From assembly GCA_027366165.1 (NCBI GenBank), contig DAHXKX010000069.1, positions 1 through 59,748 of the forward strand: a stretch of 59,748 nt of DNA, written 5' to 3'. The position numbers and the translations under genes were made by a program. Positions 41,082-43,407 of this stretch are shown one piece after another. The notes under the pieces are model-generated. The model had not been told where the DNA came from. It was given only the letters and a program-made list of their open reading frames with translations, and made no database searches. The DNA comes from Actinomycetota bacterium. Lineage in GTDB: Bacteria; Actinomycetota; Acidimicrobiia; Acidimicrobiales; Acidimicrobiaceae. Every line of letters begins with the position of its first letter. The first letter of the stretch is position 1.

Positions 41082-41825
41082 TCAACGGACCAGGGTCAGG
41101 ATCTCTCCGGTTAATTCGGAAAAAGCACTGGTCGAGGAGGACCTCGAGCTGTAGGCCGCCAGTGGCGCTCTGTTGCTTGTCATTTGCTCGATCGCCGATG
41201 ACGCGGGCACATAGTTCTTTAGGAATTTTGGGTCCTTACTGAGGTACTTCTCGAGCAACTGTTTGTGCAGCTGCTTTCTGCGATCCACCAAATTGAAAGC
41301 CGCAAGGAGCCGCGTCTTTTTGTCGGCAACTTCACCGGCAAATCTTAGCAATGTCTCAAATGTGTTTATGGAAAGCGGGTTTGGAATCACGGGAACAATG
41401 ATCAGATCCGAGAAGTTGACAACATTCTCGCTGACGGTTGAGGCCTCCGGGGGACAGTCCACAATCACCAAATCATACTCGTGACCGAATGCCTTCATGG
41501 ACTTCGAGAGTCTGGATGACTGCCGCTTCTCCTCCTCCAGCAATGAGGACAGATGCCTCAAATCGAAGTCGGATGGAATGATGTCCAGCAGCGGCCATTG
41601 AGTTTCCTTGATCGACTTTCCCAGGGAGTTCTTGCCGGATACAACCTGGGACAGCTCTCCTTTGATGTGGGGTTTGGTTCGAAGGATATAGCTCGAAGAA
41701 CCTTGGGGGTCCAAATCCCAGAGCAGAGTTCTTTGGCCGGCTCTCGCTGCCTCATAGGCGATATTTACTGCAAAAGTGGTTTTTCCAACTCCGCCCTTGA
41801 TGTTGTAAAAGGAGATGACCTTCAT
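41082..41825 (-). CDS. ParA-family ATPase
   Basis: Deviant Walker A YNIKGGVGKTTFAVNIAYEAA, LLWDLDPQGSSS, DLVIVDCPPEAST. No ParB in the window. Confidence 0.92.
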   Translation of the reverse strand: MKVISFYNIKGGVGKTTFAVNIAYEAARAGQRTLLWDLDPQGSSSYILRTKPHIKGELSQVVSGKNSLGKSIKETQWPLLDIIPSDFDLRHLSSLLEEEKRQSSRLSKSMKAFGHEYDLVIVDCPPEASTVSENVVNFSDLIIVPVIPNPLSINTFETLLRFAGEVADKKTRLLAAFNLVDRRKQLHKQLLEKYLSKDPKFLKNYVPASSAIEQMTSNRAPLAAYSSRSSSTSAFSELTGEILTLVR

Positions 41826-41829
41826 CTAT

Positions 41830-43407
41830 TCACTTCTTTCGGTAGCCAGTGGCTAACTGTATCTCACGAAATAGAGCGGGACCGGAGAACAACTTAATTT
41901 CCTTTCGGTAATCTTCGAGAGCTGTCTGCTGATCCGATTCAAGCACGTCGAAGAGTATGCTGACTTTCGCCTTGGGTATGTTGTAATTGCCACACAGATC
42001 TTCGAGAAGCTGCAACTGCACGAATGTATCCTGATGCTGTCCAAGAGCGTCCTGGAGCTTTTTGATGCTGTTGATACATTGCCTCGTCCATGCCTGCTCC
42101 AACACTGGCTCGTAGAATTCAAGCAGATATCGAAAGGTCTTCGCTTGTTTTCGCAAGCTGTGCAGAGATTCAGCGGTTTTAAGCTTCTTCGCTTTGCGTG
42201 CCTTCTTTATCAGCGTGCTGCCGGATTTGGCGAGCAAAACCCGTGCGGACTCCTTGGCGCGGGTTTTGGGAAACACCTCGATGCTTTCGCCTTGGCCAAA
42301 GGTGGGACCCATTGCGTTAATAGTGGGAGTTGACGCAAGGGCAAGGGAAAGAGACTTTCTAGCAATTTGTCCCCAGCTCAAAATGAGATTGTCGAACCTT
42401 GGTGAGGGAATCAACTGTGCAAGCTCAGCGTAGTTTCGACGGACGTCTCTGGCGATCTTGGAACTCAGAAACTCAACCTCAGGAGAGGATTTGTTGGAAT
42501 CAAGTTGTTTACTAATGACGGTTCCCAAGTTTTCGAGATCGCGAACTGGTGAGCTCGTATTAATGAAATACTTCAGCTCCGTCCGAAACCAGGAAGTGTC
42601 GACGGACCCAAACAGAGGCTCCAGCGACTTGACGAAGGAAGATGTTCGTCTAAGAGCTACTCGCAGGTCATGGAGGAATTCCGGGTCGGGATGGTCTTTA
42701 ATCCATGGAGCGTTTATCTCGGCACGATGCTGTTCACTTGAGAGCGCCTGCCCGAGTGCGATGCAACCATAAGTCGAAGGTTCGAAGTCGAGGGCAAAGC
42801 GTGACTGGTAATCCCTCTTGTACCTCTGATGGTCACTTAGAATAATGTCAAAAGGATCCTTGTTTTCTACCTTGATGTCTAGGTCCATCAGTGTTGCAAA
42901 AACCTTCTCAAATAACTTGTGTTGAAACGATCTGTATCCTCGTTTGGTGACAAGGAGAATGTGGCACTTGTTGATCTCCGGAAGTTCAAAAAACAAAAGG
43001 GTCGCTAAAGGCATTCCCTGAGAGTTCGGAAATTGGAACATCTGGCCTCTGGCCGGGGTTGACGCTTGTACGACCAGAGCTCTTTGATGGGTTGCCTCCG
43101 AAAGGCTCCGCCTTAGAAATGGCTGGTCGATGTTTTCAGCATTTAGCCATTTGAGGTTGGTGATGGGAAGATCTTCGAACGCTGAGAGCATTGGACCCAG
43201 CAGGATCAATTGAGTCTCAGTTCTGAATTCATGGATCAGAAGCTTCTGGCCACCCCTGTCGAGGGCCCAGTCAAAAGTATCCATGAGTTTAAGGATGCCC
43301 TGCCTCGGCAACGCAATGGCTAATGGATTGGTTAATTGTCTAATGGCAAGACGTACTTTTTCAACGTCGCTGCATGAAAAGACAAGCGAAATCCTTGAGG
43401 ATGCCAT
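41830..43407 (-). CDS. CHAD-domain protein with degenerate CYTH-like N-terminal region
   Basis: HDLRVALRRTSSFVKSLEPLF, SPVRDLENL, LHSLRKQAKTFRYLLEFYEPVL, IKKLQDALGQHQD. Only 4 nt lie between its stop and the parA-like start. Confidence 0.85.
   Translation of the reverse strand: MASSRISLVFSCSDVEKVRLAIRQLTNPLAIALPRQGILKLMDTFDWALDRGGQKLLIHEFRTETQLILLGPMLSAFEDLPITNLKWLNAENIDQPFLRRSLSEATHQRALVVQASTPARGQMFQFPNSQGMPLATLLFFELPEINKCHILLVTKRGYRSFQHKLFEKVFATLMDLDIKVENKDPFDIILSDHQRYKRDYQSRFALDFEPSTYGCIALGQALSSEQHRAEINAPWIKDHPDPEFLHDLRVALRRTSSFVKSLEPLFGSVDTSWFRTELKYFINTSSPVRDLENLGTVISKQLDSNKSSPEVEFLSSKIARDVRRNYAELAQLIPSPRFDNLILSWGQIARKSLSLALASTPTINAMGPTFGQGESIEVFPKTRAKESARVLLAKSGSTLIKKARKAKKLKTAESLHSLRKQAKTFRYLLEFYEPVLEQAWTRQCINSIKKLQDALGQHQDTFVQLQLLEDLCGNYNIPKAKVSILFDVLESDQQTALEDYRKEIKLFSGPALFREIQLATGYRKK

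Follow-up and report, generated by a model that had tools for sequence, protein, structure and literature searches.

A conserved CHAD-ParA gene pair as a candidate module for positioning polyphosphate granules

The window analyzed here, a 59,748-nucleotide (nt) contig of an Acidimicrobiaceae metagenome-assembled genome (MAG) from the phylum Actinomycetota (DAHXKX010000069.1), carries a gene for a CHAD-domain protein followed directly by a gene for a ParA-like ATPase. Our comparative analysis indicates, with near certainty, that these two genes form a conserved functional pair, and it is highly probable that the resulting module acts on polyphosphate (polyP) or polyP granules. ParA-type ATPases are used by bacteria for spacing cargo along DNA, and the most likely single mechanism, to which we give about an even chance of being correct, is that the module would use a ParA ratchet to place polyP granules along the nucleoid.

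Both genes lie on the minus strand. The CHAD-domain protein gene (41830-43407) encodes 525 amino acids, with a Pfam CHAD match at residues 234-469 (E-value 2.2e-39), while the ParA-like gene (41082-41825) encodes 247 amino acids and matches AAA_31 (E-value 8.7e-38). As the first-pass annotation had described, and as the open reading frames and the sequence bear out, the genes share a strand and stand 4 nt apart: the intergenic gap ATAG (41826-41829, minus) separates the TGA of CHAD from the ATG of ParA, and the purine-rich segment GAAAGAAG lies just upstream. Such spacing, read from the sequence, implies translational coupling of CHAD and ParA. Directly after the ParA stop, a terminator-like hairpin with a T-run (41067-41085, minus), identified by consensus match only, marks the probable end of the operon. 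Because of the tight gap and this hairpin, the sequence evidence points to a two-gene operon.

The first-pass annotation had proposed searching for the same adjacency in actinobacterial genomes, and a wider search yielded at least 87 distinct CHAD-ParA pairs, always in the order CHAD then ParA on the same strand. These pairs span at least six phyla, as labeled in record titles, with many of the genomes being MAGs, and include members of Actinomycetota, Pseudomonadota (α, β, and γ), Planctomycetota, Verrucomicrobiota (Cerasicoccus), Dormibacterota, and the former Deltaproteobacteria. Coupling is tight throughout, since 38 of the 87 collected pairs overlap by 4 nt (ATGA) and 78 lie within 20 nt of each other. 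An unbiased survey of the same order, covering every CHAD match in 101 of its genomes, gave 77 matches in 70 genomes. In 36 of these a ParA gene of the same orientation is the next gene downstream, in none does ParA occur in any other arrangement within the fetched flanks, and two matches are located at contig ends. The adjacency is more than chance. Conversely, a ParA profile scan using one genome per species returned at least 80 loci, and in at least 52 of them a CHAD gene of the same orientation immediately precedes the ParA. The pair also occurs in cultured organisms, namely Methylotuvimicrobium buryatense 5G (locus L140), Thalassobaculum litoreum (L177), and Paracoccus marcusii (L325).

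The association is specific to one kind of ParA. In a metagenome scan, a CHAD neighbor accompanied 8 of the 16 closest ParAs and none of the 64 weaker, generic ones. Among 151 Gammaproteobacteria, ParA scores were bimodal, with 19 at or above 250 bits and all others at or below 170; by coordinates, CHAD adjoins 14 of the 19 high-scoring ParAs and none of more than 100 generic matches. A CHAD protein is present in 17 of the 19 genomes with this ParA versus 28 of the 132 without it (Fisher p = 1e-8, kinship ignored). Where the ParA has no CHAD neighbor (21 loci, in Methylobacter and others), 19 of the 21 genomes hold a CHAD gene elsewhere, and therefore the ParA-CHAD association outlasts loss of linkage. 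The paired ParA is a recognizable, specific subfamily. A mirror-tree correlation (r = 0.88, 79 pairs) was set aside because it is confounded by shared ancestry. As a separate observation, two CHAD genes of the paired subfamily (L063:2492-4018 and L074:2423-3913) have neither a ParA neighbor nor the linker motif described below; the first adjoins transporter genes that resemble pstCAB by eye, and the second adjoins another CHAD gene and a NUDIX-like gene.

The window ParA contains a complete deviant Walker A motif, KGGVGKT, with its signature lysine, together with a WDLDPQ motif. In the alignment of 80 paired ParAs, K10, the GGVGKT segment (K15, T16), D37, D39, Q41, and D123 are invariant, and because these Walker residues are retained the protein is predicted to be an active ATPase. 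A tryptophan ahead of the Walker A' aspartate (WDLDPQ and near variants) appears in 75 of the 87 paired ParAs (73 counted and two variants recognized by eye), and this residue marks the subfamily. The nearest solved structures and folds are of the Soj/ParA type, with McdA among the fold matches, and the ParA fold is borne out by the modeled L140 pair. Nearly invariant in paired ParAs is R183, which aligns with the arginine of the DSR segment, a DNA-binding position that we take to be Soj R189.

The first-pass annotation had regarded this ParA as an orphan, a description that holds across the window genome, a MAG of 86% completeness. ParB was detected only on contigs C28 and C123 and an exact parS only on C28, with none of these on the window contig. 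C28 carries a complete parA-parB set with the exact parS, and its ParA is another ParA. The second ParB-domain protein (C123:21602-22528; L328:602-1528) has a cysteine-rich N-terminus; it was rejected as a partner of the paired ParA because it adjoins no ParA and lies far from the pair.

CHAD domains (PF05235) consist of two four-helix bundles with invariant basic and histidine residues in the pore. In the window CHAD protein, Pfam detects this domain alone, while the AlphaFold2 model (predicted local distance difference test, pLDDT, 91; predicted template modeling score, pTM, 0.89), searched with Foldseek, reveals a two-part architecture: a degenerate CYTH (triphosphate-tunnel) fold at residues about 1-190 and the CHAD domain at residues about 214-520. 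The best Foldseek match of the C-terminal half is 6QVA, a polyP-bound structure of the C. tepidum CHAD (UniProt Q8KE09); the N-terminal half matches CYTH/triphosphate tunnel metalloenzyme (TTM) folds, including class IV cyclases, TTMs, and thiamine triphosphatase. Given that the catalytic ExExK motif is missing from the window protein (the pattern occurs in just 3 of 83 paired CHADs) and that just 1 of 72 proteins gave a Pfam CYTH hit, this half has probably lost its enzymatic activity and been retained for a binding or architectural role.

The polyP-pore residues are retained: H246, R249, R253, and R289, encoded at 42541-42672 (minus) in the CHAD domain segment, are invariant in 106 aligned relatives. 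The first three align with H253, R256, and R260 of the C. tepidum CHAD, and R289 corresponds to R296 by the same offset. Substituting these pore residues lowers or abolishes polyP binding in the C. tepidum and S. solfataricus CHAD proteins (PMC6537752). The window protein is thus predicted to bind polyP via its CHAD pore, as shown for these homologues.

When neighboring open reading frames were clustered, CHAD and ParA were the sole genes shared by every locus. Several other genes recur, including ppk1 (L069, L146, L161, and L208), genes for a binding protein and a permease of the phosphate type (L140 and relatives), and genes for a SixA-type histidine phosphatase, NUDIX, and CYTH proteins; in Paracoccus marcusii (L325:9971-13747, plasmid NZ_CP157012.1) the order is CHAD-ParA-CYTH-NUDIX-CYTH, the pair being carried on large Paracoccus plasmids. 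These recurrent neighbors point to polyP or phosphate metabolism. The window genome, with a ppk1-CYTH-ppx run away from the pair (C11:8054-12979; L327:154-5079), is predicted to be able to make and degrade polyP. Co-occurrence with ppk1, which the first-pass annotation had suggested as a check, proved uninformative as evidence, as 91 of the 101 relatives have ppk1 anyway. Two further arrangements were observed. In order-level relatives (L061-L073), a second class of CYTH-CHAD protein is encoded directly downstream of ppk1, with neither a ParA neighbor nor the linker motif. In Methylobacter-like loci (L198:7787-10291, L143, L159, L166, L179, and L182), the next gene downstream of the ParA subfamily member encodes a glycogen/starch phosphorylase, and CHAD is not adjacent, hinting at a possible link with a second storage polymer; Pfam Phosphorylase was confirmed for L198, the other five being assigned by sequence likeness.

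In the mechanism we propose, the CHAD protein would attach to polyP granules through its CHAD pore, while the orphan ParA, to judge from its family, would bind ATP, dimerize, and sit on the nucleoid. The granule-bound CHAD protein would then touch ParA, possibly via the CYTH-CHAD linker, and this contact would trigger ATP hydrolysis and release. Granules would trail the receding ParA gradient, becoming spaced and shared between daughter cells. CHAD would be the counterpart of ParB in chromosome partition and of McdB in carboxysome positioning.

The candidate contact is the linker at residues 193-211, QRYKRDYQSRFALDFEP (42775-42831, minus), with the consensus GRxPxDYxSKxxxxLxP, which AlphaFold2 models as an extended coil with a mean pLDDT above 90. 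Among the CHADs that could be scored, its motif occurs in 30 of 64 paired proteins versus none of 14 unpaired ones of comparable length, and it is retained in nearly all of the unlinked CHADs from methylotrophs that still encode this ParA subfamily. We treat it as a lead only, because it was found post hoc, because the paired and unpaired classes differ phylogenetically, and because many actinobacterial CHAD-ParA pairs lack it. The idea that ATPase activation comes from a basic tail at the CHAD C-terminus was considered and rejected: the tail is mildly basic, but its net charge shows no significant difference between paired and unpaired CHADs (p about 0.5-0.8).

Several observations weigh against granule positioning by this route, the absence of the linker motif from those actinobacterial pairs being one of them. 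Known ParA partner proteins are said to touch their ATPase via a basic, disordered N-terminus (PMC10241942). The CHAD N-terminus is neither disordered nor basic: it starts with a strand, its block pLDDT is at least 81, and its net charge is near zero across pairs. A read-through model of the natural same-frame pair of M. buryatense (L140) gave a pLDDT of about 95 for both parts and a pTM of 0.70, a value similar to that of two unrelated domains of these sizes, with no interface, although the monomeric, nucleotide-free ParA used makes this a weak test of contact. Finally, the second basic DNA-binding position of Soj, presumably R218, is not conserved in the alignment of paired ParAs. The polyP-granule module put forward in the first-pass annotation is therefore sustained in part: conserved pairing, an orphan ParA, retained polyP residues, and polyP or phosphate neighbors all agree with it, while the basic, disordered N-terminus expected of the partner was not found. 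In its fullest form, a widespread, ancient ParA system that would space and segregate polyP granules, with a CHAD adaptor whose dead triphosphate-tunnel domain and conserved linker would replace the usual disordered, ATPase-activating tail, the proposal is one we advance tentatively, at somewhat less than an even chance.

Positioning ranks ahead of a role for ParA as a regulatory, ATP-dependent switch on CHAD or on polyP synthesis or breakdown, with granules left unmoved, comparable to BcsQ in cellulose synthesis or FlhG/FleN in flagella. We regard this alternative as unlikely, but it has points in its favor: regulatory or assembly functions are known for several relatives in the ParA/MinD family, the triphosphate-binding fold of the CYTH half could sense ATP or polyP, and the neighbors are metabolic (ppk1, CYTH, NUDIX, and phosphate-transporter-like genes). 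Against it, the best sequence and fold matches are to nucleoid-binding Soj/ParA and not to FleN or BcsQ, and the arginine aligned with the Soj DNA-binding position is conserved.

Two further explanations appear improbable. CHAD-bound polyP could be a signal and not a cargo, tuning ParA effects on chromosome organization or division, and in Caulobacter the inheritance of polyP granules is reported to be connected with the segregation of chromosomes (cited in PMC13052382); however, the chromosomal parABS is complete and separate, and the clustering of neighboring reading frames shows no recurrent division or segregation genes next to the pair. Alternatively, the genes could merely be co-transcribed in a shared response to phosphate status, their products never touching. 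The recurrence of polyP and phosphate genes near the pair and the read-through model without an interface would both fit this explanation, but CHAD and ParA alone are constant at all loci, their order and tight coupling are kept, and the ParA subfamily and CHAD co-occur even when unlinked. That an ordinary plasmid or chromosome partition ParA stands beside CHAD by chance, as its fold and the Paracoccus plasmid pairs might suggest, is very improbable and already disfavored, as no ParB adjoins the pair, the sole exact parS and its parB partner adjoin the other parA on C28, the Paracoccus pair precedes CYTH-NUDIX-CYTH and not ParB or replication genes, and the pairing is conserved across phyla.

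With regard to its surroundings in the window, the pair is flanked by a DinB-like gene (39891-40388) and an SbcD-like gene (43513-44790); both are on the plus strand, and the pair is accordingly a free-standing two-gene unit. The divergent neighbors at 43513-47651 (plus) comprise the SbcD-like phosphoesterase followed by a 954-amino-acid AAA/SMC-like ATPase, with overlapping ends, and these two genes adjoin CHAD-ParA in close relatives only.

If granule positioning is correct, a dedicated ParA would supply an ATP-dependent mechanism for placing polyP granules, and these would constitute a new cargo class for ParA/MinD ATPases. The question is testable at once in the cultured carriers of the pair. 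An orphan ParA with a non-ParB adaptor is already known, while polyP as the cargo is undescribed in the literature searched; no explicit proposal of CHAD-ParA positioning was found in that search, whose scope left subscription papers and preprints mostly outside. In a 2025 review (PMC13052382), the one polyP-granule positioning factor named is AlgP, and both the mechanism and any ATP cost are listed as open.

Among known systems, AlgP of Pseudomonas aeruginosa likewise concerns the spacing of granules on the nucleoid (PMC9239181, PMC13052382), but it is a histone-like tether with no ATPase partner known. The CHAD phosins, which include the Ralstonia CHAD proteins, Streptomyces PptA, and the C. 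tepidum CHAD, share the CHAD domain and polyP-binding residues, although the published accounts consulted cover granule attachment or polyP binding with no ATPase partner. The same kind of neighborhood has been reported as a folD-ppk-parA-CHAD cluster conserved within the genus Acidithiobacillus (PMC6416229, PMC10892726). Those papers, from 2019 and 2024, interpret CHAD via cAMP signaling or copper resistance and treat ParA just as a partition protein, with neither a positioning idea nor a ParA-CHAD survey outside the genus. Chromosomal Soj/ParA of the ParABS systems provides the closest sequences and folds, with catalytic residues conserved, but CHAD-ParA has no ParB/parS, belongs to the distinct WDLDPQ subfamily, and coexists with the genome's separate parABS. 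McdA-McdB, which positions carboxysomes, is similar in being a two-gene system of a ParA-type ATPase and a non-ParB partner for a metabolic body, and a dedicated, conserved partner gene, as in McdAB-like pairs, is also what the CHAD-ParA pairs display; unlike the disordered McdB, the partner here is a folded, polyP-binding CYTH-CHAD protein, and the putative cargo would be a polyanion granule.
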